Shown one piece after another: positions 14,094-55,075 of a DNA stretch of 64,000 nucleotides. The translations under genes were made by a program, and so were the position numbers. The notes beneath the pieces are model-generated. The model was not told where the DNA came from and did no database searches. It saw only the letters and a program-made list of their open reading frames with translations. Positions within the stretch are counted from its first letter, which is position 1; every line of letters begins with the position of its first letter. Location: the NCBI GenBank assembly GCA_027365225.1, contig DAHXNV010000007.1, positions 1 through 64,000 of the forward strand. The letters run 5' to 3'. Source of the DNA: Gammaproteobacteria bacterium. GTDB lineage: Bacteria > Pseudomonadota > Gammaproteobacteria > Steroidobacterales > Steroidobacteraceae.

Positions 14094-16049
<1,956 letters not shown>

Positions 16050-23600: not shown

Positions 23601-24096
23601 TCTGAACAAGATTCAGAATCCTTGGCAGGGATCGTTCGCCATCGAATACCTCACCGACCTGGTCGAAGAAGCCGTGTATCGGGAATTCGACGCGCTGACC
23701 GAGCGCGGCGGGGTGCTCGGGGCGATGGAGACGATGTACCAGCGCGGCAAGATCCAGGACGAGTCGCTCTACTACGAGACCCGCAAGCACGACGGGAGTC
23801 TGCCGATCGTCGGGGTGAATACCTTCCTGTCGCACTCCGATGCCGAGGCTGAGCATGCGCACGCCGAGCTGATCCGCTCGAGCGAGCAGGAGAAGCAGAC
23901 GCAGGTGGCGGCGGTGCGCGCCTTTCAGGCGCGCAATGCGCCGCGCGCGCCCGCGGCGTTGACTCGCTTGAAGCAGGTTGCGGGCACGGACGGCAACGTG
24001 TTCGCCGAGTTGATGGAGACCGTCAAGAGTTGCTCACTCGGACAGATCACCCATGCTCTGTACGAGGTCGGCGGACGCTACCGGCGCAACATGTGA
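20623..24096 (+). CDS. icmF: fused isobutyryl-CoA mutase IcmF (B12-dependent)
   Basis: Single-chain 1157-residue adenosylcobalamin enzyme interconverting isobutyryl-CoA and n-butyryl-CoA; IcmF homologues also have pivalyl-CoA mutase activity. Order: N-terminal B12-binding domain with DGHDAAINMIRR; a MeaI-type G-protein chaperone domain with P-loop GSGGAGKSS (about residue 212-222) and LNKSDKRG; then the mutase core from about 560. The core contains FPYTGGVYPYRREEEDPTRM, where Phe593 replaces the Tyr of methylmalonyl-CoA mutase, the signature separating IcmF from MCM. Divergent from the TetR gene. Its 3' end overlaps the convergent acyltransferase gene by 63 bp. Confidence 0.93.
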   Translation: MLPKHSSAVQSAHAEDPGSVRLSPPLRFVSAASLFDGHDAAINMIRRLLQAHGAEVVHLGHNRSVAEIVRAAIQEDADAIAATSYQGGHNEYFAYMVDMLRERGCPHIRVVVGGGGTIAPQEIDALQRYGVERIYTPEDGRRMGLEGMIEDVFARVRAARKPAFETRPLTTRDPVQIARAITVLENAGPADAPAEQIRRTTQRSPNRVPVIGITGSGGAGKSSLTDELLTRLLRQFPDCQIAVAAMDPTRGRSGGALLGDRIRMNSIDTDAVFMRSLATRRRHMATAAVLKDVIQLYRAAGFDLILVETAGTGQADSEIVDLVDRSVYVMTGEYGAASQLEKIEMLDHADLIVLNKSDKRGANDGLRDLRKQWRRNHPEARDLADADVPVFPTVASRFNDPGVNRLFTALCRLIGAQRLGSVAWETADSAQLEPQAREPLIPGSRVRYLAEIAHNGRGVRAQIERQAQAASRAQGLYQALQVVDADAVPAALEPCPAAVRGDGDATRQALRAAYNEALDGIGAEGIGALKAWPERAQAASAATYSYRVRGHEVSGENYSETLAHERVPKLAVPKLRDWGELLRFIRSENLPGAFPYTGGVYPYRREEEDPTRMFAGEGAPERTNRRFHYLARGHGAVRLSTAFDSTTLYGEDPDLRPDIYGRTGNSGVSVATLDDMKKLYSGFDLARPSTSVSMTINGPAPMILAMYLNTAIDQGVERYLRAEGRWRDAERRIEMLRREAAEGASEPLAYHGERPQGHDGSGLALLGVTGDQLLEPQVYERIKAETLSAVRGTVQADILKEDQAQNTCVFSTEFALRMMGDVQEYFIAHQVRNFYSVSISGYHIAEAGANPITQLAFTLANGFTIVEYYLARGMKIDDFAPNLSFFFSNGMDPEYAVIGRVARRIWARAMRDLYGGGPRSQMLKYHVQTSGRSLHAREIGFNDIRTTLQALYALFDNCNSLHTNAYDEALTTPTEASVRRAVAIQLIINRELGLNKIQNPWQGSFAIEYLTDLVEEAVYREFDALTERGGVLGAMETMYQRGKIQDESLYYETRKHDGSLPIVGVNTFLSHSDAEAEHAHAELIRSSEQEKQTQVAAVRAFQARNAPRAPAALTRLKQVAGTDGNVFAELMETVKSCSLGQITHALYEVGGRYRRNM

Positions 24097-31357: not shown

Positions 31358-32593
31358 ATGGCCGAGTATAAAGCGGACACCAAAGCGGACATACAAAGGG
31401 CGGAAGACCGGGGCGAGGCGACCGGCCTGATGGAGCCGCTTGTCCTGGGGGAAGGCTCTCGCCACCGTGTGGAATTGACCGATCTTGCGCTGGAGCTCGC
31501 GCAACGGAGTGCTGGCTTCCGCCGCTCACTGCCGGAAAGCCTGCTGTCGTCGCTCGCGACGCTCGTGCGCGCGATGAACTGTTACTACAGCAACTTGATC
31601 GAGGGGCATGACACCCACCCCATCGATATCGAGCGCGCCCTGCAGGGCGACTACAGCAAGGATGCGAAGAAGCGCAATCTGCAGCTCGAAGCCATGGCGC
31701 ATATCGCCGTCCAGCAATGGATTGACGAAGGCGGTCTCAGGGGCCGGGCAGTTGCCGCGGACTCCATCCGCGAGATTCACCGTCGGTTCTGTGAAGCGCT
31801 GCCCGAAGATCTGCTGTGCGTTGAGGACCCGGCCACACCCGAACGCATACGGATCATCCCGGGCGAACTACGCACCCGTGACGTCGCGGCGGGCGATCAC
31901 ATCGCCATCAGCGCGTCGGCGGTGCCCCGCTTCCTCGGGCGCTTTGAAGGGGTCTATAGCCGCCTCGGCAAGACCGAAACCATCCTCGCCGCGGCGGCGG
32001 CCCATCACCGCCTGGCTTGGATTCACCCGTTTCTCGACGCTAATGGCCGCGTCGCGCGGCTGATGTCACATGCAACGTTGCTTGATGCGCTTGACACCGG
32101 CGCGGTCTGGTCTGTCGCGCGCGGCTTGGCCCGCAACGTTGCTGCATACAAGGGTCACTTGGCTGCGTGCGATATGACCCGTCGAAACGATCTCGACGGT
32201 CGCGGTAACCTGAGCGAGGAAGCCCTGGCGGAATTCACGCGATTCTTCCTGGCCACGTGTCTCGATCAGGTCACGTTCATGGAAGGGCTGATGCAGCCGG
32301 ACTCCCTGCGCGCCCGTATCCTGCTGTGGACCGAAGAGGAAATTCGTCTCCATCATCTGCCGCCGAAGTCGGGTGCCATCCTCGAAGCCGTGCTCTACCG
32401 CGGCGAGCTGCCGCGCGGTGATGCAGCCGGCATCGTTGGCACCGGAGACCGTCAGGCGCGCCGCGTCGTGTCGGCGCTGATCGAGAGAGGGGTGGTGATT
32501 TCCGCGAGCAGCCGCGCGCCGCTTCGGCTTGCCTTCCCGGCGGCGCTGGCATCACGCTGGATGCCGGGCCTATTTCCAGATCAACGTGGTTAA
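31358..32593 (+). CDS. Fic/DOC family AMPylase with inhibitory helix
   Basis: A 411-residue Fic-domain protein, expected to transfer AMP from ATP to a target protein. The active-site loop is HPFLDANGRVAR with His223; the common Gly of HPFxDGNGR is Ala here. The inhibitory motif SxxxEG is present before the core as Ser78...Glu82-Gly83, so this is a class II, self-inhibited Fic protein. The C-terminal roughly 100 residues form a winged-helix-like domain (RGDAAGIVGTGDRQARRVVSAL). No separate antitoxin is adjacent. It stands alone in a decayed accessory zone, suggesting horizontal acquisition. Confidence 0.88.
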   Translation: MAEYKADTKADIQRAEDRGEATGLMEPLVLGEGSRHRVELTDLALELAQRSAGFRRSLPESLLSSLATLVRAMNCYYSNLIEGHDTHPIDIERALQGDYSKDAKKRNLQLEAMAHIAVQQWIDEGGLRGRAVAADSIREIHRRFCEALPEDLLCVEDPATPERIRIIPGELRTRDVAAGDHIAISASAVPRFLGRFEGVYSRLGKTETILAAAAAHHRLAWIHPFLDANGRVARLMSHATLLDALDTGAVWSVARGLARNVAAYKGHLAACDMTRRNDLDGRGNLSEEALAEFTRFFLATCLDQVTFMEGLMQPDSLRARILLWTEEEIRLHHLPPKSGAILEAVLYRGELPRGDAAGIVGTGDRQARRVVSALIERGVVISASSRAPLRLAFPAALASRWMPGLFPDQRG

Positions 32594-33359: not shown

Positions 33360-34436
33360 ATGACCCGCGCTGATCACATCAAAATGGTCCAGGGGATCTC
33401 TGCGATGCGTGAAAATCATCGCAGGAGCGCAAACATCATTGCTTTCGTCTCAAAATTTGACCTTCGATGCGATAGTTCGGATTCGATTACGCAAATCGCT
33501 TTTCATGTACCGAGATTCTTCAGTTTTGCGTTTCCATTGGCAATTCTCAGACTTTCTTGGAGAGTCCGTCGTGCGCAAGCACTCTTTGTATCTAATCCGC
33601 ACAATGAAGAGCTGCTATTCATATATCTATCCAAGCTGCTATACGGAGACGCTCTGAAAGTCATCGTATTTGATTTGATTCTTCGGTCTCCAACTAGAAT
33701 GCGCGATAAAGTCTTGTTGCCGATCAAGAAGAAGTTTTTATCGGTTATAGATACATTCATTGTCATACATAGAGATACGCGTGGCTACGAGCGCTACTAC
33801 GGTGTCCCGCGAGCGCGCTGCGAGTATGTGGCATTCAAGGCAAACAATATTGATTTAATCGGAACAATTCCGGAGGTGGACCGGGGCTACGTTCTGGCGC
33901 TTGGGGCGAGCCAAAGAGATTACGAACTATTGATCAGCGCAGTGTCTGGCTTGGAATATCCTGTGAAACTGATTCTATCCAGGGCGAGGGCCGATGCGCA
34001 TAATTCCAAATTAAGCAGCGGTCCACTTCCTCCTAATGTCGAACATATCGAGGGGGATGTGAATCGGCAGGAGTGGAATAAGTGCATTGCCGAAAGCCGG
34101 CTAGTAGTTGTGCCGATTCTCCCGGATGCCATACAGCCGGCGGGAATTAGTGTCTACCTAGAGGCGATGGCATTTGGAAAGCCCGTAATTGTCACGCGTG
34201 GCGCGTCAACGGAGGGTCTTCTTGATGATGGAAGGGTTGCCTATGTCATCCCTCCCGGAGACAGCGCTGCGTTGCGCGCTGCGATAAATCAAGTATGGTG
34301 TGATGAAAGTGTTCGCGAGAGATTATCGATGAACGGCAGAAGTTATGCAATGTCTCTTGGTACGCACGAGAGATTGGTGAGAGATATCAAGCGAGTCATT
34401 CAAGAGACGTGCTCGGGAAGAAAAGTCCCGGGATGA
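33360..34436 (+). CDS. GT4-type glycosyltransferase, AT-rich
   Basis: A 358-residue protein whose C-terminal half is a GT-B/GT4 donor-binding domain: RGYVLALGASQRDYELLISA, VNRQEWNKCIAESRLVVVP, and the E-x7-E-like region SVYLEAMAFGKPVIVTRGAS with GLLDDGRVAYVIPPGDSAAL. The N-terminal half is poorly conserved. It probably adds a sugar in surface polysaccharide synthesis. Codon third positions are clearly more A/T-rich than in flanking genes (many aat, att, gat, aaa), a sign of recent transfer. The acceptor is unknown. In-frame ATG codons at 33384 and 33405 are alternative starts. Confidence 0.8.
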   Translation: MTRADHIKMVQGISAMRENHRRSANIIAFVSKFDLRCDSSDSITQIAFHVPRFFSFAFPLAILRLSWRVRRAQALFVSNPHNEELLFIYLSKLLYGDALKVIVFDLILRSPTRMRDKVLLPIKKKFLSVIDTFIVIHRDTRGYERYYGVPRARCEYVAFKANNIDLIGTIPEVDRGYVLALGASQRDYELLISAVSGLEYPVKLILSRARADAHNSKLSSGPLPPNVEHIEGDVNRQEWNKCIAESRLVVVPILPDAIQPAGISVYLEAMAFGKPVIVTRGASTEGLLDDGRVAYVIPPGDSAALRAAINQVWCDESVRERLSMNGRSYAMSLGTHERLVRDIKRVIQETCSGRKVPG

Positions 34437-34461: not shown

Positions 34462-34557
34462 GTGACGAAAAATCCTGCTGCGCGGATGCGCATTTATGAT
34501 GGTCCAGGAAAGATGCTGAGGTTTGTAGAAGACCGCGAGAATGAGGAATCCGGGTAA
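34462..34557 (+). CDS. possible 31-residue leader ORF coupled to the ACP gene
   Basis: Starts with GTG at 34462 and ends in TAA at 34555-34557, sharing its last base with the ATG of the acyl carrier protein (TAATG). The product contains ARMRIYDGPGKMLRFVEDRE. The overlap suggests translational coupling, but no homologue is known to me and the frame could equally be the tail of a lost gene. Confidence 0.3.
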   Translation: MTKNPAARMRIYDGPGKMLRFVEDRENEESG

Positions 34558-34802
34558 TGAACGTCCGATCGACGATTGCCGATACCTTTCAGGCCGTGGC
34601 CCGCGAGCAGCAGCGGCAGCTTGCCGCGCTGAGCGATGAGCTGAAGCTGCTCGAGAGCGGTCTGGATTCGCTCAGCTTCGCGCTGATCGTCGCGCGCCTG
34701 GAGGAGACCCTCGGCTACGATCCGTTCGAGAGCGCGGCGAGCTTTCCGGTCACCTTCGGCGATTTCGTGCGACTCTACGAGTCATTCGCCCGAGAGTCAT
34801 GA
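34557..34802 (+). CDS. acyl carrier protein, free-standing
   Basis: An 81-residue helical carrier protein. The phosphopantetheine attachment serine is in the LDSLSFALIVARLEE segment (DSL signature), and the end FGDFVRLYESF resembles helix 4 of ACP/PCP proteins. It overlaps the ligase gene by ATGA, so the two are translationally coupled and the ligase most likely loads this carrier. A GAGG ribosome site precedes the ATG. It is unlike housekeeping AcpP (no FGVEIPDE-type region). Confidence 0.85.
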   Translation: MNVRSTIADTFQAVAREQQRQLAALSDELKLLESGLDSLSFALIVARLEETLGYDPFESAASFPVTFGDFVRLYESFARES

Positions 34803-36175
34803 CGCTCTGGGACTCGCTGGCCCGAGACGGCGGGCGGCCGTCCGGAGCGTTGAGCGATGCGGTGCGAACGGTGTCGCTGACCGCGCTCGAGAGCGGCTCG
34901 ACGCTCGGCGGGCGGCTCGAGTCCCTGCGCGGCCGGTCCGTCGTGTTGGCAATACCGGATCAGTTGGCCGCGAGCCTGGCGATGATCGAGCTCGATGGCG
35001 TGGCGCGGCGCATGGTGTTGTGTCCGGCGGGCGTCGCGCCCGAGCACACGTCCCACGTGGCGCGAACCGCCGAGGCGGACGCGTGGGTGAGCGGGGCGGG
35101 CGGCGAGCCTCCGAGTGTCCCTGTGCCGGTGCACGTCGAGGCTTGCCGCGAGCCGCAACCCTGCGCGGTCACGCGAGGCGGCGGCGCGACCGAATGGGTG
35201 CTCCTCACCTCCGGCACCACCGGGGCGCCGAAACTCGTGGTGCACAATCTCGCCAGCTTGCTCAGCGCTTTTGCCGGCTGCGCCGAGGAGCTTGTGCCTG
35301 GGCGGGTGTGGAGCACGTTCTATGACGTCCGCCGCTACGGTGGGCTGCAAATCCTGCTGCGGGCCTTGCTCGGCGGCTCGCTGGTGCTCTCGAGCCCCGG
35401 CGAGCCCGTCCCGTCTTTCCTCGATCGGGTTGCGGCGGGCGGGGTGACGCACCTCTCGGGTACGCCGTCCCACTGGCGGCAGGCGGTGATGAGCGGCGCG
35501 GCGCAGCGCTGCGCGCCGGCCTATGTGCGCCTGTCGGGGGAGATCGCCGATCAAGGCATTCTGGATGCGCTCCGGGCCGCGTTTCCCCGCGCCACCGTGG
35601 CGCATGCGTTCGCCTCGACGGAGGCGGGTGTCGCGTTCGAGATCCGCGATGGGAAGGCCGGTTTTCCGGTTACATGGGCTGGCCTGTCCGTGCAAGGCGT
35701 CGAGATCGACGTCAGCCGCGGCACGCTGAGACTCCGGTCGCCCGGGAACGCGCAGCGCTATCTCGGTGATGCTCTGGCGCTGAAGGACGAGGACGGATTC
35801 GTCAACACCGGCGACCGGCTCGAGCTGCGCGAGGGGCGCTATCACTTCGTCGGCCGCGCCGGCGGCATCATCAATGTAGGCGGTCTGAAGGTTCATCCGG
35901 AGGAGGTGGAGGCCGTGATCAATGCGCATCCGGCGGTGCGGATGTCGTTGGTGAGCGCCCGGCGCAATCCGATCTCCGGGGCGGTGGTGGCGGCCGACGT
36001 GGTGCTGGAGCGGCCGGTCGCCGAGGGGGACGACGCGGCGGGTGCATCGCTGCGCCAGGACATTCTCGCGGCGTGCCGCGACAAACTGGCGCCCTACAAG
36101 GTGCCGGCGGTGATTCACTTCGTCCCATCGCTGAAGATGTCCGCCTCCGGCAAGCTGGTGCGCCCCGATGCGTAA
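34799..36175 (+). CDS. AMP-dependent acyl/aminoacyl ligase
   Basis: Adenylate-forming enzyme of 458 residues, shorter than typical acyl-CoA ligases (500-550). Core motifs: [15 protein letters not shown] (P-loop), ASTEAGVAF, NTGDRLELREGRYHFVGRAG, GGLKVHPEEVEAVI, and C-terminal catalytic Lys in KMSASGKLVRP. The truncated N-terminal subdomain resembles ligases paired with discrete carrier proteins. Overlaps the ACP gene by 4 bp and the following reductase by 8 bp. The activated acid cannot be read from the sequence. Confidence 0.88.
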   Translation: MTLWDSLARDGGRPSGALSDAVRTVSLTALESGSTLGGRLESLRGRSVVLAIPDQLAASLAMIELDGVARRMVLCPAGVAPEHTSHVARTAEADAWVSGAGGEPPSVPVPVHVEACREPQPCAVTRGGGATEWVLLTSGTTGAPKLVVHNLASLLSAFAGCAEELVPGRVWSTFYDVRRYGGLQILLRALLGGSLVLSSPGEPVPSFLDRVAAGGVTHLSGTPSHWRQAVMSGAAQRCAPAYVRLSGEIADQGILDALRAAFPRATVAHAFASTEAGVAFEIRDGKAGFPVTWAGLSVQGVEIDVSRGTLRLRSPGNAQRYLGDALALKDEDGFVNTGDRLELREGRYHFVGRAGGIINVGGLKVHPEEVEAVINAHPAVRMSLVSARRNPISGAVVAADVVLERPVAEGDDAAGASLRQDILAACRDKLAPYKVPAVIHFVPSLKMSASGKLVRPDA

Positions 36176-36890
36176 CGTGCTGGTGAGCGGCGGCAGCCGG
36201 GGGCTCGGCCTCGCGAGCGTGCTGCGGCTGGCCGACAGCGGCTATCGGGTGATTGCGCTGGCGCGCGCGCCGAGTGATGCGTTGCGGGCGGCGATGGAGT
36301 CGCGGCCGGAGCGCATCGTGTTCACGGCCTGCGACCTGGCGGACACGGCCGCGATCGGTCCGCGGGTGGGTGAAGTGCGCAAGACGTACGGGCCCCTGTA
36401 CGGTCTCGTCAACAACGCGGGGCTGGGCACCGGCGGGCTACTGTCGATGATGCGCGATACGGACATCGAGATGCTGCTGCGCGTGAACACGCTCGCGCCG
36501 CTCGTGCTCACCAAGCACGTGCTGCGCTCGATGATGAGCGCCGGTGCGGGCCGTATCGTCAATATGAGCAGCATCGTGGCCACGCACGGCGCCAAGGGAC
36601 TGTGCGCGTATGCGGCGACCAAGGCCGCGCTAGAGGGGCTGACGCGCTCGCTCGCCCGCGAGGTGGGACCGCTCGGCATCACGGTCAACGCCGTGGCGCC
36701 GGGGTTCGTGGATACGACGCTGACCGAGGCGCTGGGCGAGGCCGCGCGGGAGCGGATCGTGCGGCGCAGCGCGTTGCGCCGCATGGCGGAGCCGGCCGAT
36801 ATCGCCCAGGCGGTGGACTACCTGCTGAGCGATGCCGCACGCAACATCACGGGCGTCACGCTGACCGTGGACGCCGGCAACACGGCATGA
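36168..36890 (+). CDS. FabG-like short-chain reductase
   Basis: A 240-residue SDR, probably a 3-oxoacyl-carrier-protein reductase or related ketoreductase. Cofactor motif VSGGSRGLGLAS near the N-terminus; NNAGLGTGG; catalytic NMSSIVATHGAKGLCAYAATKAAL split around Ser and YxxxK; PGFVDTTLTE; terminal GVTLTVDAGNT. Its start overlaps the ligase by 8 bp, pointing to one transcript and a shared substrate, perhaps the acyl group on the upstream ACP. Confidence 0.87.
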   Translation: MRNVLVSGGSRGLGLASVLRLADSGYRVIALARAPSDALRAAMESRPERIVFTACDLADTAAIGPRVGEVRKTYGPLYGLVNNAGLGTGGLLSMMRDTDIEMLLRVNTLAPLVLTKHVLRSMMSAGAGRIVNMSSIVATHGAKGLCAYAATKAALEGLTRSLAREVGPLGITVNAVAPGFVDTTLTEALGEAARERIVRRSALRRMAEPADIAQAVDYLLSDAARNITGVTLTVDAGNTA

Positions 36891-36897
36891 GGCATTC

Positions 36898-38178
36898 ATG
36901 AAGCCCGAGACCATTGCGCTGCACGGGGGGTTCGATTGCGATCCGGCGACGAAATCCGTGGCCGTGCCCATCTATCAGACCGTGGCCTACGCGTTCGACA
37001 GCGCCGCGCACGGCGCGGCGCTGTTCGATCTGGAAGTCGAGGGCTTCCGCTATACCCGCATCGGCAATCCCACCACTGCCGTGCTCGAGAAGCGCGTGGC
37101 GCAACTCGAGGGCGGAATGGACGCGCTGTGCGTCAGCTCCGGGCAGGCGGCGCTGCACTATGCGGTGCTGACGGTGACGGAGGCGGGCCGCAACATCGTG
37201 TCGGTGCCGCAGCTGTATGGCACGACGCACACGTTGTTCGCGCACATCCTGCCCAAGCTCGGCATTCGGACCCACTTCGCGAAGGACGATCGGCCGGAAT
37301 CCCTCGCGGCGCTGATTGACGCCGATACCCGGGCGGTGTTCTGCGAGACGGTCGGAAACCCGGCCGGCAACGTCTGCGACCTCGAGGCGATGGCCGCGGT
37401 TGCGCATCGCGCGGGCGTGCCGCTGATCGTCGACAACACGGTGGCGACGCCGATCCTGGTGCGTCCGATCGAATTCGGAGCCGACGTCGTGCTCCACTCG
37501 CTCACCAAGTTTCTTGGTGGGCACGGCACGACGCTCGGCGGGGCGATCGTGGACAGCGGCCGCTTTCCCTGGCGCGAGCATGCGGCGCGCTTCCCGATGC
37601 TGACCGAGCCGGACGAGTCTTACCACGGCCTGGTGTACACCGATCACTACGGGCCAACCGCCTACCTCGGCCGTTGCCGCAGCGCCTTCCAGCGCACCAT
37701 GGGCGCGGTGCTCGCGCCGCTGAGCGCATTCCTGCTGCTGCAAGGGATCGAGACGGTGGCGCTGCGCATGGAGCGTCATGTCGAGAATGCGCGGCGCGTG
37801 GCCGAGTTCCTGCAGGCGGATCCGCGGGTGGTTTCGGTGAGCTATGCGGGCTTTCCCGACAGTCCGTATTATCCTCTGGTGCAGAAGTACCTGCGCGGCA
37901 AGACCTGCTCGCTGATGACCTTCACGATCCGGGGGGGATATGATGCTGGCACGCGCTTCTACGATGCGCTGAAGCTGTTCAAGCGCCTCGTCAACCTTGG
38001 CGATGCGAAGTCGCTGGCCTGCCATCCGGCCTCGACCACGCACCGGCAGATGTCGCCCGAGGAGCAGCGGCTCGCGGGCATCGGACCGGAGACCGTGCGG
38101 CTCAGCATCGGTATCGAGCACATCGACGATATTCTCGCCGACCTCGACCAGGCGCTCGCCGCGGCGGTCGGCTCCTGA
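36898..38178 (+). CDS. Cys/Met-metabolism PLP enzyme (O-acetylhomoserine sulfhydrylase-like)
   Basis: A 426-residue fold-type I PLP enzyme. Typical MetY-group features: ETIALHGGFDCDPATKSVAV with PIYQTVAYAF at the start, RIGNPTTAVLEKRVAQLEGG, SSGQAA, TVGNPAGNVCDLEA, IVDNTVATP, and PLP lysine in HSLTKFLGGHGTTLGG. Family members replace an O-acyl group on homoserine with sulfide or thiol. Seven bases after the reductase, it looks operonic; whether it is a dedicated biosynthetic enzyme or a housekeeping neighbour is open. Confidence 0.9.
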   Translation: MKPETIALHGGFDCDPATKSVAVPIYQTVAYAFDSAAHGAALFDLEVEGFRYTRIGNPTTAVLEKRVAQLEGGMDALCVSSGQAALHYAVLTVTEAGRNIVSVPQLYGTTHTLFAHILPKLGIRTHFAKDDRPESLAALIDADTRAVFCETVGNPAGNVCDLEAMAAVAHRAGVPLIVDNTVATPILVRPIEFGADVVLHSLTKFLGGHGTTLGGAIVDSGRFPWREHAARFPMLTEPDESYHGLVYTDHYGPTAYLGRCRSAFQRTMGAVLAPLSAFLLLQGIETVALRMERHVENARRVAEFLQADPRVVSVSYAGFPDSPYYPLVQKYLRGKTCSLMTFTIRGGYDAGTRFYDALKLFKRLVNLGDAKSLACHPASTTHRQMSPEEQRLAGIGPETVRLSIGIEHIDDILADLDQALAAAVGS

Positions 38179-38193
38179 GGGGATGGGGGCGGT

Positions 38194-39618
38194 ATGTCCG
38201 CGGATGAGCTGCCGCAACCGGTTGCCGCGCTGTTTCCGGAGCGCGAGGCGCGCGAACGCATCGATGACGGTCTGACGCGTGCGCTTGCGGCTGCCACCGA
38301 GCGGGTGAAGCGCGGTCCGGTCATGCCGGATCTTGATCTGGCGGAGTTCCGCCGGCAGCTCGCGGTGTTCGACTTCGAGCAGCCGCGCACGCTGGAGCCG
38401 GTGATGGAGTGGGTGATTGGCCAGCTCGAGCACGGCACGGTGCACATGACCCATCCGCGCTACTTCGGATTGTTCAACCCCGCACCCACCTTCCCCGCCC
38501 AATGCGCCGACCGGATCGCCGGTTGCTTCAATCCCCAGCTCGCCAGCTCAGGCTCCTCGGCGACGCCGGTCGCCATCGAGGCGCACGTGATCCAGGCGAT
38601 CGCGCGGCGTGCGGGCATGCCGGCCGAATCGGCGGGGCATTTCACCACCGGCGGCTCGGAGGCGAACTTCACCGCCCTGGTCTGCGCGCTGACCCGGGCG
38701 CATCCGTCCTTTGCCAAGGAGGGCGCGCGCGCCTTCCGCGGCCCCATCACGGTGTACACCTCGCGGGAATGCCAACCGGCGTGGCACAAGATCGCGCATC
38801 AGGCGGGGATCGGGCGGGAGGCGCTGCGGCTCGTCGCGACCGATGGCAGTGGTCGAATGGATGCCGGCGCGCTGGCCGAGCGGGTGAGAGAGGACCTGGA
38901 TGCGGGCGATATCCCCGTGCTCATCTGCGCCACGGCGGGCACCACCGGCGCCGGGATGATCGATCCACTGGAGTCCTGCGCGCGCATCGCCGAGGAGCAC
39001 GGGATCTGGTATCACGTCGATGCCGCCTGGGGCGGGGCGGTGATCTGTTCCGAGCGGCTGCGCGGCGCGCTGCAGGGCCTGGAGTTCGCCGACTCGGCGA
39101 CCATCGATGCACACAAGTGGTTTGCGACCACCCTGGGCTGCGGCATGTTCATCACCCGGCACGCCCCGCTGCTGCACGACGCCTTCGGGGTGGGGGCGGA
39201 CTTCATGCCCTCCACCGCCGCCAGCATCGATCCGTATCTGAACACCGTGCAGTGGTCGCGGCGGTTCATGGGCCTGCGCCTGTTCCTGTCCCTGGCCGTG
39301 GCCGGCTGGACGGGCTATGGGGCGCATGTCGAGCGCGCGGTCGAAGTCATCAGTCGCATCCGGGAGCGCCTGCAGAGCCTGGGCTGGTCGGCCGTGAACG
39401 ATTCAAGGCTGGCGGTGCTGTGCGTCGTGCCGCCGACCGGCTCGCCGCCGGTCCGCGAGATCGTCAAGCGCCTGCTGGCATCGGGACGCGCATGGGCGGC
39501 GGTCGCGCAGTTCGAGGGGCACGAGGTGCTGCGGATTTGCGCAACGCATGGTGAGACGACGAGGGAGGACGTTGACGAACTTGTAGCCGCGCTGCAGGCG
39601 GCACGCGCGCAGGGGTGA
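38194..39618 (+). CDS. PLP-dependent amino-acid decarboxylase (AADC/glutamate decarboxylase family)
   Basis: Group II decarboxylase, 474 residues. Visible: HPRYFGLFNPAPTFP, GHFTTGGSEANFTAL, CATAGTTGAGMIDPLE, the aspartate pocket VDAAWGGA and PLP lysine in IDAHKWFATTLGCG. The substrate could be an aromatic or acidic amino acid; family membership does not decide. Starts 15 bases after the previous gene and closes the five-gene cluster. A product amine could be the nucleophile that accepts the ACP-bound acyl group, but that is inference. Confidence 0.88.
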   Translation: MSADELPQPVAALFPEREARERIDDGLTRALAAATERVKRGPVMPDLDLAEFRRQLAVFDFEQPRTLEPVMEWVIGQLEHGTVHMTHPRYFGLFNPAPTFPAQCADRIAGCFNPQLASSGSSATPVAIEAHVIQAIARRAGMPAESAGHFTTGGSEANFTALVCALTRAHPSFAKEGARAFRGPITVYTSRECQPAWHKIAHQAGIGREALRLVATDGSGRMDAGALAERVREDLDAGDIPVLICATAGTTGAGMIDPLESCARIAEEHGIWYHVDAAWGGAVICSERLRGALQGLEFADSATIDAHKWFATTLGCGMFITRHAPLLHDAFGVGADFMPSTAASIDPYLNTVQWSRRFMGLRLFLSLAVAGWTGYGAHVERAVEVISRIRERLQSLGWSAVNDSRLAVLCVVPPTGSPPVREIVKRLLASGRAWAAVAQFEGHEVLRICATHGETTREDVDELVAALQAARAQG

Positions 39619-39788: not shown

Positions 39789-41060
39789 TCAGCGGCGGCG
39801 GCTCGTTTGGCCGGGTGTCTCATCACCGATTACGAAGCGCTCGAAGCGCTGCACGACCTGCGCCATGTCGAAGGTTCGATCGACATACGCCTTGCCGCGC
39901 AGGCCCACTTCACGGGCATACTGCGGGTCGCGCAGCAGCGCGCGGGTGTGCGCGCGCAACTCCTCGTCGCTGCGGCCCACCAGGATCTCCTCGCCCTCGC
40001 GGGCACCGACGCTGTTGAGGCAAATTTCCGTGGTGACCACGGGCTTGCCGGCATGCATAGCTTCGAGGATCTTGTTCTGCAGTCCGGCGCCCCCGATCAT
40101 CGGGTAGACGAATATCCCGACATTGGCGATGTGCGGCCAGATGGATTCCACCGTGCCGGTGACCTCCACGTCCGTGCTCGCCAGTGCCCGGATTTTCCGC
40201 ACCGGATCGCGGCCGATGATGGCCAGCTTCAACGCGGTGAATTCGCGTTTCAGCGGCGTGAACACGTCGTGGTGCAGCCGCAGCGCGCCGTCGATATTCG
40301 GCCCGTACGCCATGTGACCGAGGAATCCGATCGACAGCGTGGCCGGGTGCGCGGGGGAGGGCGGAGGCGCGCCGGCGAGGTAGATGCCGTTCGGGATGAC
40401 CTCGGGCGAAGGGCCCGCGCCGTTGGTCGAGGCGGCCGCGTCCGGTGCGGAGATGTAGGCGGCCGCATCGACCCCCGCGAGGAGACTGCGCTCCCACCGG
40501 CGGGTCTTCCACAGGTCGAATACGTTCCAGGCATTGCGGATTCCGCCCGGGGGCGGCTCGCGCAGGTGATGCAGATAGGGCGAGTCGATGCTGTCGTACA
40601 CCGTGCGCGCGCCCTGGAGCTGCGGCTTGAGCCGCTCGAGCAGGTGGCGGTACTCGTGCATGACCCACAGGACGGCATCGTAGCGCCGGTCGGCGATGAA
40701 TTCGCCGAGGTCGCGCAAAGCGAAGTCCGAGTGGTATCGCGCGAACCGGTACGGGCAACCAAAGGGCGAAATTGCCTCTGATATGGTGACGATCCGGTCG
40801 GCAATCGCCGGCGGCCCCATGTTCTTTTGCTGGACCGACACCTTGCGCAGGGCCTGGAGCAGCGGATCATCGGGCACCGTCCTGCGTGGCTCGCCGTGCA
40901 CGTACAGATCGATGTCGTGCCGCTGCGCCAGCGCCTCGATCAACGGATAGTAGCGGATCGAGATGCCATTGTGCCGCGCCGGCCAGGGCGCCACCGGTAG
41001 CACCAGCAAGATCGATCTGCGCGGCGTGCGCCTGTCGAGTTGAGCCGGGTCGGTGCTCAC
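39789..41060 (-). CDS. GT4 glycosyltransferase, PEP-CTERM/exopolysaccharide type
   Basis: About 423 residues, GT-B fold. Strong similarity in layout to the TIGR03087-like sugar transferases found beside EpsB: the opening ILLVLPVAPWPARHNGISIR, then TVYDSIDSPYLHHLREPP, SIGFLGHMAYGPNIDGALRL and GAGLQNKILEAMHAGKPVVT. It likely adds a sugar to the polyprenyl-linked repeat unit. No ATG start: GTG at 41060 best fits the family, TTG at 41123 is an alternative. Upstream on the same strand lies another GT4 gene, 169 bp away. Confidence 0.87.
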   Translation of the reverse strand: MSTDPAQLDRRTPRRSILLVLPVAPWPARHNGISIRYYPLIEALAQRHDIDLYVHGEPRRTVPDDPLLQALRKVSVQQKNMGPPAIADRIVTISEAISPFGCPYRFARYHSDFALRDLGEFIADRRYDAVLWVMHEYRHLLERLKPQLQGARTVYDSIDSPYLHHLREPPPGGIRNAWNVFDLWKTRRWERSLLAGVDAAAYISAPDAAASTNGAGPSPEVIPNGIYLAGAPPPSPAHPATLSIGFLGHMAYGPNIDGALRLHHDVFTPLKREFTALKLAIIGRDPVRKIRALASTDVEVTGTVESIWPHIANVGIFVYPMIGGAGLQNKILEAMHAGKPVVTTEICLNSVGAREGEEILVGRSDEELRAHTRALLRDPQYAREVGLRGKAYVDRTFDMAQVVQRFERFVIGDETPGQTSRRR

Positions 41061-41229
41061 AGGGGCAGCCCGTCGAGGTACGAGGAGTTCCTCACGCCGA
41101 GCTGCGAGCCCTCGGCACGACAACCACAGGCGCTGCTGCCTGCTGCGGTGAAGGCGGTCCGGTAAAGCGTGGTTGCGCAGGACGATCGGCGCTGCGCCGG
41201 AATGCTCATATCGTATGGCGGAGCGCCGC

Positions 41230-42417
41230 TCATGCCTTCACCGCGGCGACGTGTGCCAGCAGCTGCGCATTGATACTGCGGATATCATAGTGATCGATTA
41301 CGAACTGGCGCCCGGTCTGACTGAGCGTGCGCAGCGTCGCGCTGTCGTCGGTCATCATGGAGCTGAGGCGCGCCAGCAGTTCGTCCTGGGATCCCGGCGT
41401 GTACAGGTACGGGTGGAATATCGTCGGCAGCGATTCACGGATCCCGCCGATATCCGAGGCAATGACGCTAGCGCCCATCAGCATGGCCTCCTGCATGACG
41501 GTGGCCTGGGTATCTTTGAAGTTGCTACCCGGCACGGGCAGACTGGAGAAGATGAGGACATCGACCATGGCCAGGTGAGCGATCATGGCTTGGTAAGATT
41601 CGATGAACCCCGCGAATGTCACGTGCTCGCCCAAGGCCAACTGCGCGGCGAGCGCCTTCAGGGCGGTGAGCTCGGGCCCGCCCCCGATCAGGGTGAGATG
41701 AAAATCCTGACGTTGCTTGCGCAGCTCGGCGAACGCGTGCAGCACAACATCAAAGCCCTTCTCGCGGGCCATCCGGCCGAGACACACGAACCGCCAGCAA
41801 TTGTCGGGCAGGTACGTGCGGTTTGGCGGCGGCGCGAAGCGCTCGAGCGGAAAGCCGACCGGGATGCGCACGGTGCGCTCGGGCGCGGCGCCCCGCGCAA
41901 TCACCTCGTCGACGGAGGCCTGAGTATTCGAGAACACGATGTGCGCTCGTCGCAGTGCGCGGACGGACTCCTCGGGCGGAATCTGCCGCACGCCGGGAAT
42001 CTCCCCGCCATGGTAGTAGATCGCCAGCGTCGTGTGGGGTGCCGCCAGCCGCAGGTAGGAGAAGTGCACGGCGGTGGCGAGATTGTGCACGAAGTACACA
42101 TCCGGCGGATCCGCCGGCAGCTGCGCGTCGGTGGCCAGGCGCTTGGCGATCGCCAGCGGTTGTCGCTCGGAGCGCATGACCCGCCAGCTGCGTGCGGGGT
42201 TTCGCGCCAGCCGCCAGAGGATCGTGCCGAGCAGTCGCAGCGGCGCCTGCCGCAGGGTGCGGATGAAGGAAATCGGAAATTCCGACGTGCCGCCCGGGAT
42301 CTGCCCCAGCGAGTAAATGCGCAACACATGGCCCTGGCGGCGCCACTCGGAGAGCTGCGACTCGAAGTAGGGCTTGGAGGGATGCGGATAGACGTCGAAG
42401 AATACGTCGATTCTCAT
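41230..42417 (-). CDS. GT4 glycosyltransferase
   Basis: A 395-residue GT-B transferase. The N-terminal acceptor domain starts RIDVFFDVYPHPSKPYFESQ; the C-terminal donor domain has RFVCLGRMAREKGFDVVLHA, LTLIGGGPELTALKA, VTFAGFIESYQAM and the E-x7-E region TVMQEAMLMGASVIASDIGG. Likely part of exopolysaccharide assembly with the neighbouring GT and EpsB genes. ATG 42417 fits the strand start best; ATG 42465 would add 16 residues. Confidence 0.88.
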   Translation of the reverse strand: MRIDVFFDVYPHPSKPYFESQLSEWRRQGHVLRIYSLGQIPGGTSEFPISFIRTLRQAPLRLLGTILWRLARNPARSWRVMRSERQPLAIAKRLATDAQLPADPPDVYFVHNLATAVHFSYLRLAAPHTTLAIYYHGGEIPGVRQIPPEESVRALRRAHIVFSNTQASVDEVIARGAAPERTVRIPVGFPLERFAPPPNRTYLPDNCWRFVCLGRMAREKGFDVVLHAFAELRKQRQDFHLTLIGGGPELTALKALAAQLALGEHVTFAGFIESYQAMIAHLAMVDVLIFSSLPVPGSNFKDTQATVMQEAMLMGASVIASDIGGIRESLPTIFHPYLYTPGSQDELLARLSSMMTDDSATLRTLSQTGRQFVIDHYDIRSINAQLLAHVAAVKA

Positions 42418-42517
42418 CGCTGTTCCGGTGTGCTCGGTGCCGTGGGTGATTGCAGTAGAGGTCATCGTCCGTTGCGCCGGTGGCAGCGAGGATTTCTGGA
42501 GCTGATTTCGTCCGTGA

Positions 42518-42892
42518 GTAGCATACCGGATTGAGCGGCGCGCGCCCGGAGTCGCCGTTCCGCCAATCGGCGGGTGGAGGTATGAGTCGAGCTCCGGCGC
42601 CTTCGGCGCTCGCAACGAAGAGGCTCGCTGGAGCCAAATTCCGAACCGGCGCGGTGGCACGGGCAACGCCGGCTGGAGCTGGAATTGGAATCGACACGAT
42701 CAGGAAGGCTGGGGCGCCGAGGGATGGAAGTTCGGCCAGAATGGCGGTCCGGGCGGCCAGACCCGTGACGAGAACCGTAATGGCTGGAACTTCGGCCAGT
42801 ACCCGCACTGGAATCATTGCGCGGCTCGCTCCCCGAGCCGGGCTCCCCGGCGCTGTTCAGTGCCGCGCCGGGGCGGCTGGGTGCGGCCGTGA
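42518..42892 (+). other. Trp/Asn/Gly-rich open frame without a start codon
   Basis: From the TGA at 42515 to the TGA at 42890-42892 one plus frame stays open and, unlike the Ala/Arg-rich frames around it, encodes a patterned low-complexity product. It contains GGTGNAGWSWNWNRHDQEGW followed by an imperfect repeat, GWKFGQNGG and GWNFGQYPHWN. No ATG, GTG or TTG occurs before the end, so it is a fragment, a frameshifted gene or a coincidence. A terminator-like hairpin on the same strand follows at 42971. Confidence 0.3.
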
Positions 42893-43106: not shown

Positions 43107-44510
43107 TTGCGCATCCGGCTGTTTGGACATTATGTTTACCTAGCGGTCGCGCTGCTGTTCGCGGCGGAGGCGATCATGTTCTTCGCCGCCGTCTATGCGG
43201 CGGTGCTGGTGCGTTTTCACGGCTCGCTCGGGAGCATTCCCGATGCGCCCGATCTGGTCGGCGCGCTCTGGCCGCGGGCGCTGCTGTTCAGCCTGATCAT
43301 GCTGCTGAGCCTGCTGTCCTTCGGGCTGTACAGCGCCCGGCAGCGGGCCCGGCTGACCGGGCTCGCCGCGCGGCTGATCCTGGCGGTGCTGATGGCCTTC
43401 GGGGTGGCCTCGGCGCTGTTTTATCTGGTCCCCTACCTCTGGATCGGCCGCGGCGTGGTGGGACTGGCGACCGTGGGGGCGCTGCTGGGGATGGTGGTAT
43501 CCCGCTCGATCTTCTCCCGGGTCGTCGATGAGGACGTCCTGAAGCGTCGTGTGCTGGTGTACGGCGCAGGCAAATCCGCCGCGGCCATTGCCGGGATCCG
43601 CCGCCGCGCGGATCGCCGGGGGTTTCTCGTGGTGGGCTATGTGCCGGCCGCCGGCGAGCAGCGGCAGGTCGCGGACGGGCTGCTCGATCCGAGAGTGGGT
43701 TTGGCGCACCTGTGCTCACGTCTCGAGGTGAGCGAAGTGGTGGTGGCCATGGATGATCGCCGGCGCGGCTTTCCGATCGCCGAGCTGCTGCAGTGTCGTC
43801 TGGCCGGTGTGGATGTCACCGAGCAGCTGACGTTCCTCGAGCGCGAGACCGGTCGGGTCCGCATCGACATCCTGAACCCGGCCTGGATGATCTTCGGGGA
43901 GGGGTTTAGGCGCGACCCGATCCGGCTGCTGACCAGCCGGACGCTGGATCTGGCCGCGGGGCTGATCGTCATCACGCTCGCCTCGCCCTTCATGCTGTGT
44001 GCGGCGCTCGCCATCAAGCTGGAGGAGGGCTGGTGCGCGCCGGTGCTCTACCGTCAGCGGCGGGTGGGACTGCTCGGGCACCCCTTCTGGCTGTTGAAAT
44101 TCCGCAGCATGCGCGTGGATGCGGAGGAGGATGGGCAGGCGCAGTGGGCGACCAAGAACGATCCGCGGGTGACTCGTGTGGGGGCGCTGATGCGCAAGAC
44201 GCGCATCGACGAGCTGCCGCAGCTGCTGAACGTGCTGCTCGGGCAGATGAGCCTGGTGGGCCCGCGCCCGGAGCGGCCGGAGTTCGTCGCGGACCTCGCC
44301 GAGCGCATCCCGTACTATCACGAGCGCCACTCGGTCAAGCCCGGCATCACCGGCTGGGCGCAGCTGTGCTATCCGTACGGATCCTCCGAGCAGGATTCGC
44401 TCGAGAAGCTGCAGTACGATCTGTATTACGTGAAGAACAACACGCTGCTGTTCGATCTGACGATCCTGCTGCAGACCGCCGAGGTGGTCTTTCTCGGCAA
44501 GGGGCGCTGA
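43107..44510 (+). CDS. EpsB-type polyprenyl-phosphate sugar phosphotransferase
   Basis: Initiating transferase of exopolysaccharide synthesis, 467 residues, moving a hexose-1-phosphate onto undecaprenyl phosphate. Four to five N-terminal membrane helices, a Rossmann-like middle ([19 protein letters not shown]), a further helix ([20 protein letters not shown]) and the catalytic domain with [43 protein letters not shown] and PGITGWAQ. It matches the PEP-CTERM-associated EpsB subgroup. The start codon is TTG at 43107, immediately before [11 protein letters not shown] as expected in the family. No PEP-CTERM sorting genes are in the window. Confidence 0.92.
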
Positions 44511-44525
44511 GCGCCATCGAGGAGG

Positions 44526-44954
44526 TCAGTCCTGTGCCGGCGCGGCGCCGGGGCGCGATTCGAGCCGTCGCCAGAATCCGCCGGGTTTCAGGATCGGGAT
44601 GCCGCGGAACGTATCGAGCTCGAGAAGGTCTTTGTCGACCGTGATCAGTACCTCGGCGCGGCCGGCTACCGCCGTGCCGAGCACCGGCAAATCATCGGCG
44701 TCGCGGCAAGCTCCCGGCGCGATCTCGGTCGGCTCTACGAGCCCGGCGGCGGCGATCACGCTGTGCCGGACCGCGGCGATGTCATCCGCGGGATAGTTGA
44801 ATTTCCCCCGCAGCTTGCGACACAGCTCCGCCACGATGAACCGGGAGATCACCCACTCGTGGTCATTCAGGACATCCTCGAGCACGCTGGCGCACGCTCC
44901 GGCTCGGCTGATGTAAGCGGCCACCAGCACCGAGGAATCCAACACCGCTCTCAC
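44526..44954 (-). CDS. PIN-domain toxin
   Basis: Putative ribonuclease toxin, 142 residues, of the COG1569 PIN group. Acidic active-site residues are visible in AVLDSSVLVAAY (Asp6), FIVAELCRKL (Glu), DADDLPVLGTA (Asp pair) and the terminal VDKDLLEL. It overlaps the upstream antitoxin by 4 bp (ATGA), the usual coupling in type II modules. Convergent with the EpsB-like gene at 15 bp. Confidence 0.88.
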   Translation of the reverse strand: MRAVLDSSVLVAAYISRAGACASVLEDVLNDHEWVISRFIVAELCRKLRGKFNYPADDIAAVRHSVIAAAGLVEPTEIAPGACRDADDLPVLGTAVAGRAEVLITVDKDLLELDTFRGIPILKPGGFWRRLESRPGAAPAQD

Positions 44955-45172
44955 GGCTCGCCGAGCTTGCGGAACACGTCCTCGTCGGTGTGAATGTCCT
45001 GGGCCTGGGCTCGCGGGACGAGCCGCGCGCGCAGGCGATGAAACCTCATGACCCGCAAATAACGCTGCAGCGCCTCGCGGGCGAGGTCGCTCTTGGACAG
45101 ATGGCTGGCAGCGCTCTCCTGTTCGAGCGCCCGGTCGAGCTCATCCGGGATGCGCAGCGTCAGTGTTGCCAT
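44951..45172 (-). CDS. ribbon-helix-helix antitoxin
   Basis: A 73-residue antitoxin. N-terminal ribbon-helix-helix (ATLTLRIPDELDRALEQES, then LSKSDLAREALQRYL) binds DNA; the C-terminal part (RARLVPRAQAQDIHTDEDVF) would bind the PIN toxin. ATG 45172 is chosen; it lies inside a perfect inverted repeat that is the likely autorepression operator. A further in-frame start at 45208 would place the operator inside the coding sequence. Confidence 0.87.
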   Translation of the reverse strand: MATLTLRIPDELDRALEQESAASHLSKSDLAREALQRYLRVMRFHRLRARLVPRAQAQDIHTDEDVFRKLGEP

Positions 45173-45193
45173 GTATTGCAATGTAATACATGG
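45169..45193. promoter_or_regulatory. operator of the RHH/PIN toxin-antitoxin operon
   Basis: CCATGTATT-GCAATGT-AATACATGG: perfect 9-bp arms around a 7-base centre. The ATG of the antitoxin (45172-45170, minus strand) is part of one arm, so a bound RHH protein would block both transcription and start-codon access. Confidence 0.75.
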
Positions 45194-45299
45194 GGGTTCG
45201 AGGCGCAAGCGCGCGGCACCCTCCGCGTGCAGCCTGCGGTGCTCGTTCCCGGCAAGGGGTGCTGCGGCATCAATCCCGGCTCGATCGCCGGGGGGGGCG

Positions 45300-54643: not shown

Positions 54644-54670
54644 CATTTGTCCTCGTAAGATAGACAAATG
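54644..54670. promoter_or_regulatory. operator of the Xre/RES toxin-antitoxin operon
   Basis: CATTTGTC-N11-GACAAATG: perfect 8-bp arms (10 of 11 if extended to GGACATTTGTC / GACAAATGACC). The right arm includes the ATG of the antitoxin gene (54668-54670). Position and symmetry fit autorepression by the Xre antitoxin. Confidence 0.75.
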
Positions 54671-55075
54671 ACCGACACGGTGTTCAAGTCCTACCCTCTC
54701 GAGAACGATCTCGAGATGGCCGCGCTCATCCTCGTCGGCCTACCCGCGGTCGTGCTGAGACGTGTCGGTACGTTCCTTGATCTGCGCCCGGCGAAGGTCG
54801 GCTCGATCGTCAATATCAATGAGAAGACGCTGGAGCGGCGTCTCAAGGCGCACGCGCGGCTCAAGCCCGACGAGTCCGAGCGCGTCGCGCGCCTCATGCG
54901 CATCATCTCCCGGGCAACGTCGGTCCTGGAGAGCCGGGAGCACGCCCGAGAGTGGCTGAATCGGCCGCTGCGCGAGCTCGGGGGCCACAGCCCGCTGCAG
55001 GTGGCCGCGACCGAGCCGGGTGCGCGGGAGGTGGAACGGGTCCTCGGCCGCATCGAGCACGGAATCTTCGCCTGA
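54668..55075 (+). CDS. Xre/MbcA/ParS-type antitoxin (DUF2384)
   Basis: A 135-residue antitoxin partner of RES toxins. N-terminal helix-turn-helix part (GLPAVVLRRVGTFLDLRPAK, then TLERRLKAH) and the C-terminal toxin-binding domain with SRATSVLESREHAREWLNRP and LGGHSPLQVAATEPGAREVE are the DUF2384 hallmarks. It probably neutralises the RES toxin and represses its own promoter at 54644-54670. Confidence 0.9.
   Translation: MTDTVFKSYPLENDLEMAALILVGLPAVVLRRVGTFLDLRPAKVGSIVNINEKTLERRLKAHARLKPDESERVARLMRIISRATSVLESREHAREWLNRPLRELGGHSPLQVAATEPGAREVERVLGRIEHGIFA

Follow-up and report, generated by a model that had tools for sequence, protein, structure and literature searches.

A carrier-protein, ligase, reductase and two-PLP-enzyme gene set of a Steroidobacteraceae bacterium is the recurring core of a larger, apparently undescribed cluster in alpha- and gammaproteobacteria

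The Five-Gene Set

The DNA analyzed here, referred to as the window, is a stretch of 64,000 nucleotides from a gammaproteobacterium of the Steroidobacteraceae (assembly GCA_027365225.1, contig DAHXNV010000007.1, positions 1 to 64,000). Its forward strand carries five closely spaced genes that encode an acyl carrier protein (ACP), an adenylating ligase (LIG), a short-chain reductase (SDR), a Cys/Met-type pyridoxal phosphate (PLP) enzyme (CYS) and a PLP decarboxylase (DEC). ACP, LIG and SDR together are called the trio, and META denotes the homoserine O-acyltransferase family.

34557-34802, forward strand: ACP, freestanding acyl carrier protein of 81 amino acids (aa); Pfam PP-binding, 4.1e-05
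34799-36175, forward strand: LIG, short ANL-family adenylating ligase, 458 aa; Pfam AMP-binding, 5.3e-17, and AMP-binding_C, 2e-13
36168-36890, forward strand: SDR, FabG-like short-chain reductase, 240 aa; Pfam adh_short_C2, 2.6e-50
36898-38178, forward strand: CYS, Cys/Met-metabolism PLP enzyme; Pfam Cys_Met_Meta_PP, 7.2e-125
38194-39618, forward strand: DEC, group II PLP-dependent amino-acid decarboxylase, 474 aa; Pfam Pyridoxal_deC, 5.2e-54

The tight packing noted in a first-pass annotation of this DNA is real: all five genes share one strand, the first two junctions overlapping by 4 bp and 8 bp and the last two leaving 7 bp and 15 bp between genes. The annotation's assignments (carrier protein, ligase, FabG-like reductase, Cys/Met PLP enzyme and decarboxylase) agree with Pfam. 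It had also stated that ketosynthase, condensation and thioesterase domains are missing, which holds for the five proteins in a family-library scan that covered 26 of the 51 called window genes; ten neighbor-family representatives from relatives also contain no ketosynthase or condensation domain. A standard polyketide synthase or nonribosomal peptide synthetase (NRPS) was rejected on account of the missing ketosynthase and condensation domains in the five proteins. Their fit to named families is loose overall (NCBIfam models, 25 shown per protein for LIG and SDR). Pairwise NG86 dN/dS values against the orthologs of genome G013 (locus L030) are 0.11 for ACP, 0.20 for LIG, 0.20 for SDR, 0.07 for CYS and 0.18 for DEC; on these values the five genes look maintained by purifying selection.

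Conservation and Co-inheritance in Relatives

A ligase search of related genome contigs gave 49 loci, of which 47 were counted; L031 (a fragment, L032 coming from the same genome) and L078 (29% identity) were left out. Loci reached at most 10 kb to each side or to the contig ends, so that the family counts are lower bounds, and neighbor families were assigned from one representative each. ACP and LIG are present in all 47 loci and a clear SDR in 44 (it is missing or partial in L049, L050 and L075, while L077 was counted with a partial match). The same locus holds CYS in 30 cases, DEC in 7 and META in 28, all 28 being among the 30 loci where CYS is linked. Further recurrent families are a PRK08279-like acyl-CoA synthetase (40/47), an amino acid:carrier-protein ligase and a flavoprotein that are both found in the same 26 loci, a second carrier protein (24/47) and a branched-chain-aminotransferase-like gene (17/47). 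The genes of the set do not stand together by chance.

In its fuller form in relatives the cluster includes the acyl-CoA synthetase, a MetA-like homoserine O-acyltransferase, the second carrier protein, the amino acid:carrier-protein ligase, the flavoprotein and a hydrolase. Twenty cluster regions were examined, and L142, L145, L146, L149 and L150 are among those that hold the families ACP, LIG, SDR, CYS, DEC, FATP, META, ACP2, ACAD, AAL and LIP together. In relatives the cluster can reach about a dozen genes, with the five as its recurring core, which could not be seen from one window. Its carriers, several of them soil or acid-loving bacteria, include Bradyrhizobium, Rhodopseudomonas, Acetobacteraceae and a gammaproteobacterial family; in a 398-genome sample of the phylum, the ligase was matched at E up to 1e-60 in 18, the window's own genome among them. 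Fifteen genomes behind the 17 loci without CYS were searched, and 12 of them carry CYS at 70-75% elsewhere, the next paralog being at 47-50%. Ten such cluster-type CYS regions away from the trio, from nine of those 12 genomes, have META beside CYS in nine cases. The genome of the cultured strain Rhodopila globiformis DSM 161 has its ligase on one contig and a CYS-DEC pair on another.

Co-inheritance was followed in 196 related genomes (own included), with the ligase taken at E 1e-40, CYS at 72% or more, DEC at 50% or more and the amino acid ligase at 59% or more. The ligase is present in 27 of them. Ligase and CYS occur together in 23 genomes, the ligase alone in 4, CYS alone in none and neither in 169; for the window's genus alone (58 genomes) the same four counts are 20, 3, 0 and 35. 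For ligase and DEC they are 25, 2, 8 and 161. The amino acid ligase is found in 24 of the 27 ligase genomes and in four others. Weaker matches remained uncounted, namely DEC at 39% in G007 and 49% in G117, and amino acid ligase hits of 43-51% in several genomes. In G057, one of the four ligase genomes without CYS, a contig begins with a partial CYS, and in G018, G024 and G027 DEC and the ligase lie on different contigs.

Independent occurrence of the two PLP genes in related genomes had been named as an observation that would speak against a joint pathway. For CYS there is no such independence, as it is found only in ligase genomes (23 with both, 0 with CYS alone) and 12 of the 15 searched genomes that lack CYS beside the trio hold it elsewhere. 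DEC gives a divided picture: it is present in 25 of the 27 ligase genomes, while eight genomes have DEC without the ligase and 12 Bradyrhizobium and Rhodopseudomonas genomes have no DEC over 30%. Of the eight, G052 and G082 (both incomplete) carry DEC at 74-76% and six genomes of the same order at 50-57%. The surroundings of five of these 50-57% relatives (L193-L197, of which L197 spans only 4.5 kb) contain no other cluster gene except an SDR at 27% in L195.

Altogether, the five reading frames are intact and show purifying selection, and in relatives the genes are linked and inherited together. That the five belong together, as the first-pass annotation had proposed, is borne out by this linkage and co-inheritance, and they very probably act as one functional unit of a larger pathway.

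Several further observations concern the loci of relatives. Genome G035 has the cluster in two versions, each on its own contig (L140, L141), and a further fragment on a third. A family of about 213 aa lies near CYS in the Acetobacteraceae-type loci L058, L067, L069, L071, L184, L188 and L189; its representative has no Pfam or NCBIfam match, and its predicted fold weakly resembles heme-oxygenase-like proteins (CADD, PolF, HamA; Foldseek E 8.4e-03 or weaker). Among the 47 loci this family (6 loci) and the amino acid:carrier-protein ligase (26 loci) are never found together. A protein of about 130-150 aa, SnoaL-like by eye, stands beside the cluster hydrolase gene in L139, L140, L142, L144, L145, L146 and L149.

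Carrier Protein, Ligase, Reductase and Decarboxylase

The phosphopantetheine site of ACP reads LESGLDSL (Ser38), and D37, S38 and L39 are invariant in 14 aligned rows, window included. LIG belongs to the ANL family, with an AMP-binding and a C-terminal domain, the nucleotide loop and the C-terminal catalytic Lys. Across 25 aligned ligases T137-S138-G139-T140 (the TSGT loop), K145, R178/R179 and G451-K452 are invariant, as are the stretches TFYD-RRYGG-Q and GTPSHWR. With LIG, none of the 25 NCBIfam models shown comes near its cut-off; the NRPS amino-acid adenylation domain model TIGR01733 gives 82.9 bits vs. a cut-off of 317.4. NRPS adenylation domains carry their alpha-amino-binding Asp in an FDxS motif; by eye on the alignment, LIG seems to have the acyl/aryl-ligase-like STFYDVRRYGGLQ at this place instead. 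The predicted structure (AlphaFold2, pLDDT 83) shows the usual ANL fold. Its matches among solved folds are numerous aryl/acyl ligases and adenylation domains at similar Z, none standing out as nearest, and the substrate of LIG is therefore unreadable from the model.

SDR is a member of the short-chain reductase superfamily that retains the Y...K motif in nearly all of 69 aligned rows. Its best NCBIfam model is 3oxo_ACP_reduc (TIGR01830), at 199.8 bits against a cut-off of 297.75, and it stays under the cut-offs of all 25 models shown. The TIDAHKW stretch of DEC is retained in 97% or more of the 39 rows aligned (the window's among them), and the PLP lysine in DAHKW places the enzyme among the group II decarboxylases. 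The nearest NCBIfam model for DEC is L-2,4-diaminobutyrate decarboxylase (NF052646), whose cut-off of 900 lies far above the 149.7 bits obtained.

CYS as a Separate Clade

Of the NCBIfam models, CYS passes only that of the broad O-acetylhomoserine/O-acetylserine sulfhydrylase subfamily, TIGR01326 (595 bits, cut-off 495.1); PRK06084 gives 645.5 bits, under its cut-off of 790. In a tree of 79 sequences, drawn with midpoint rooting and subject to a long-branch warning, 64 cluster-type rows, the window's CYS among them, lie on one side of a 100/99 branch, and eight paralog rows at 62-64% and seven at 48-50% identity lie on the other; the groups themselves were set by identity. Ten alignment positions set the cluster rows apart from the 62-64% paralog rows. 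Cluster-type rows carry R51 (64/64), T109 (64/64) and H111 (61/64), whereas the paralogs have I and G at positions 51 and 109 in all 15 rows and, at position 111, Y in all eight 62-64% rows and a mix in the 48-50% rows. Five solved sulfhydrylase (MetY)/FUB7 chains also carry I and G at positions 51 and 109, residues that none of the 64 cluster-type rows shares. Judged by methionine gamma-lyase structures, position 51 presumably lies beside the phosphate-binding Tyr and position 109 presumably corresponds to the active-site Cys116.

CYS belongs to a distinct clade adjoining the O-acetylhomoserine sulfhydrylases (MetY), and we propose that it performs gamma-replacement on O-acyl-L-homoserine. 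The clade and the substitutions at presumed active-site positions make a changed substrate or nucleophile more likely than ordinary homocysteine synthesis, short of proof. The alternative is a sulfur-based pathway, in which CYS, with the MetA-like enzyme in relatives, would be an ordinary homocysteine synthase and DEC would turn homocysteine or methionine into a thiol or thioether amine. In favor of a sulfur role for CYS are the passed TIGR01326 cut-off and the META-like genes, at 36-38%, that also adjoin the 62-64% CYS paralogs in other genera. We nevertheless regard this reading as unlikely, given the separate clade, the substitutions at presumed active-site positions and the strict co-occurrence of CYS with the ligase. 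In addition, a PF01053 search of 17 genomes, ten of them ligase-bearing, found other Cys/Met enzymes in all ten, and the idea that CYS serves as the sole methionine-type enzyme was rejected on these grounds. CYS and META are homologous to the MetY and MetA (homoserine O-acyltransferase) pair, and differ from it in that CYS has its own clade with R51/T109/H111, is tied to the trio and stands beside other Cys/Met enzymes. A pattern search for the acyl-donor residue of MetA-like enzymes matched nothing in any aligned row.

The Window Copy and Its Surroundings

The window holds only the five-gene part of the cluster, and none of the partner families of the relatives' clusters was found in its 64 kb. 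As far as the assembly shows, which is 65.6% complete, the window copy is partial. Completion beyond the window was rejected: the part of the contig (C196) between 60,001 and the contig end at 85,787, apart from 79,901-80,000, contains only a flavoprotein paralog at 42% beside unrelated genes. Glycosyltransferases had been reported on both sides of the set, and the library scan confirms them:

33360-34436, forward strand: glycosyltransferase-family gene
39789-41123, reverse strand: glycosyltransferase-family gene
41230-42666, reverse strand: glycosyltransferase-family gene
43107-44510, forward strand: polyprenyl glycosylphosphotransferase EpsB_2

A Fic-domain protein (31358-32593) precedes the upstream glycosyltransferase just ahead of the cluster. 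The stretch from 32 to 34 kb has a GC content of 0.55, compared with 0.64-0.66 in the adjoining 2-kb steps, which suggests a recent insertion. In L142-like relatives, the hydrolase, amino acid ligase and flavoprotein genes stand upstream of ACP where the window has this low-GC stretch with its glycosyltransferase. Together with the absence of the relatives' partner genes from the window, and of two of them from the assembly, this could indicate that the window copy is the leftover of a broken cluster that no longer makes a product. The five intact frames, with pairwise dN/dS of 0.07-0.20, and the incomplete assembly argue against it, and we consider it very unlikely.

The surroundings also raise the possibility of polysaccharide decoration, whereby the trio would make a (hydroxy)acyl-ACP whose acyl group is moved to an amino sugar, or to an amine from the two PLP enzymes, within an exopolysaccharide locus. 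Glycosyltransferases and EpsB_2 flank the cluster in the window. Ten flanking proteins were scanned in the four nearest kin in the CYS tree, and exopolysaccharide-type genes are clear in L139 (a UDP-sugar dehydrogenase and a glycosyltransferase), L142 (a polysaccharide deacetylase and two glycosyltransferases) and L144 (Wzz and a sugar transferase); they are weak in L140, which has a hexapeptide-repeat protein, an FAD oxidoreductase and one more protein without a match. Distant trios of the same three-gene order also occur in glycan loci on plasmids: those of Haematobacter and Qingshengfaniella have acyltransferase and glycosyltransferase genes nearby, and that of Azospirillum has glycosyltransferases, a pseudaminic acid synthase and a ketoacyl-ACP synthase III. 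Their ligases are 40-41% identical to LIG over 70-72% of its length, however, and acyltransferase, hydrolase or ketoacyl-ACP synthase III genes take the place of the two PLP enzymes. The window's five-gene set contains no acyltransferase gene, CYS and its acyltransferase recur apart from the trio in several genomes, and the flank evidence covers only four nearest kin. A polysaccharide link is possible around the window and these kin; decoration as the function of the set appears rather unlikely to us.

A Proposed Pathway

Our best overall explanation, held at close to even confidence, makes the five genes a conserved portion of a more extensive small-molecule pathway that resembles specialized metabolism. 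LIG would adenylate a carboxylic acid without an alpha-amino group and load it onto ACP, and SDR would reduce a carbonyl of the ACP-bound chain. CYS may exchange the gamma-acyloxy group of O-acyl-L-homoserine, a substrate that the accompanying MetA-like transferase would supply in relatives, for a nucleophile that is probably not sulfide, which would yield a gamma-substituted 2-aminobutyrate. DEC would then decarboxylate this product to a gamma-substituted propylamine, following the logic proposed for LolC and a decarboxylase in fungal loline formation. These four steps, as worded here, are put forward tentatively, with somewhat less than even confidence. In a fifth step the amine and the ACP-bound acid might be joined or processed further by partners encoded outside the window; candidates in relatives are the acyl-CoA synthetase, the amino acid:carrier-protein ligase with the second carrier protein, the flavoprotein and the hydrolase.

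The logic of gamma-substitution and decarboxylation is borrowed from CndF, Fub7, AnkD and Mur24 and from the proposed role of LolC. Gamma-substitution with non-sulfur nucleophiles is described for the first four in PMC10367076; for LolC, an enzyme not biochemically characterized, it is a proposal (PMC10367076 and PMC4274035).

Several observations weigh against a conserved small-molecule pathway of this kind. The Fisher p-values for co-occurrence (3e-26 and 1e-12) are descriptive only, as they ignore phylogeny and genome incompleteness. G043, which is 97% complete, has the trio at a contig end without CYS, DEC or the amino acid ligase at the thresholds used, and 3 of the 15 searched trio genomes (those of L052, L056 and L070) have no CYS over 50%. 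DEC at 50% or more is found without a ligase match in 8 of 196 genomes, and none of the 12 Bradyrhizobium and Rhodopseudomonas genomes searched has DEC over 30%, so that decarboxylation is not universal in the pathway. To these are added the TIGR01326 match of CYS and the META-like genes beside its paralogs. The window's own assembly, at 65.6% completeness, has no META match at E 0.001 and no amino acid:carrier-protein ligase at E 1e-30, and its sole flavoprotein match is the 42% paralog, which lies at 67.4 kb of the window's contig among unrelated genes.

The cluster is apparently undescribed, in that keyword searches of the open-licence literature turned up no description; PMC3717770 gave no enzyme function. 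We speculate, again with less confidence than an even split would express, that alpha- and gammaproteobacteria share an undescribed family of such clusters, where a neofunctionalized homocysteine-synthase relative, fed by a homoserine acyltransferase, performs non-sulfur gamma-substitution and is coupled to two carrier-protein branches. One branch would be that of the adenylating ligase and the other, in relatives, that of the aminoacyl-tRNA-synthetase-like amino acid:carrier-protein ligase, and the same guarded confidence covers both jointly. Joint inheritance of as many as about twelve genes points to a conserved metabolite. Most of the enzymes belong to assayable classes and the cluster occurs in cultured strains, which puts both the pathway and the function of the amino acid:carrier-protein ligases within direct experimental reach.

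Comparison with Known Systems

The loline pathway of Epichloe fungi employs LolD, a PLP decarboxylase of the ornithine-decarboxylase type, and to our knowledge includes no carrier protein, ligase or SDR. It resembles the present set in pairing LolD with a gamma-substitution enzyme, LolC, which is proposed to condense proline and homoserine (PMC4274035 and PMC10367076). It differs in being fungal, while here a MetA-like acyltransferase accompanies CYS in relatives.

The exosortase A (XrtA)-associated set consists of a ligase, an ACP, a PLP decarboxylase and hydrolases near exopolysaccharide genes. The likeness lies in the ligase, carrier protein and PLP decarboxylase in such a setting, and fused hydr1/hydr2-like hydrolase matches occur in 6 of the 47 cluster loci. 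The XrtA decarboxylase is of another fold type, however, and we know of no CYS in that set. An XrtA-associated ligase was rejected for LIG, which lies far under the TIGR03098 cut-off (60.4 bits vs. 592.35) although exopolysaccharide genes are present in the window.

A third comparison concerns the loci of Bradyrhizobium bll0957, which reportedly (in a 2010 paper) encodes an amino acid:carrier-protein ligase. Such a ligase and a flavoprotein stand together in 26 of 47 cluster loci, and the cluster representative of the ligase scores 466 bits in PRK07080 (cut-off 357). The class is described in PMC9437257. A table of PMC10888616 lists bll0957 and bll0958 (acd) one after the other, which parallels the AAL-ACAD pairing in the cluster. 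Unlike these loci, the window's assembly (65.6% complete) yielded no amino acid ligase, and the consulted passages of the literature do not describe the wider cluster. If the undescribed cluster family suggested above is real, amino acid:carrier-protein ligases of the Bll0957 type would gain a biosynthetic home.

Other Genes in the Window

Elsewhere in the window, a PIN-domain protein with a small adjoining open reading frame (44526-45208) and a RES/Xre-type antitoxin (54668-55075) may belong to toxin-antitoxin pairs. An acetoacetate--CoA ligase (14094-16049) and a fused isobutyryl-CoA mutase, IcmF (20623-24096), are encoded in the same window.

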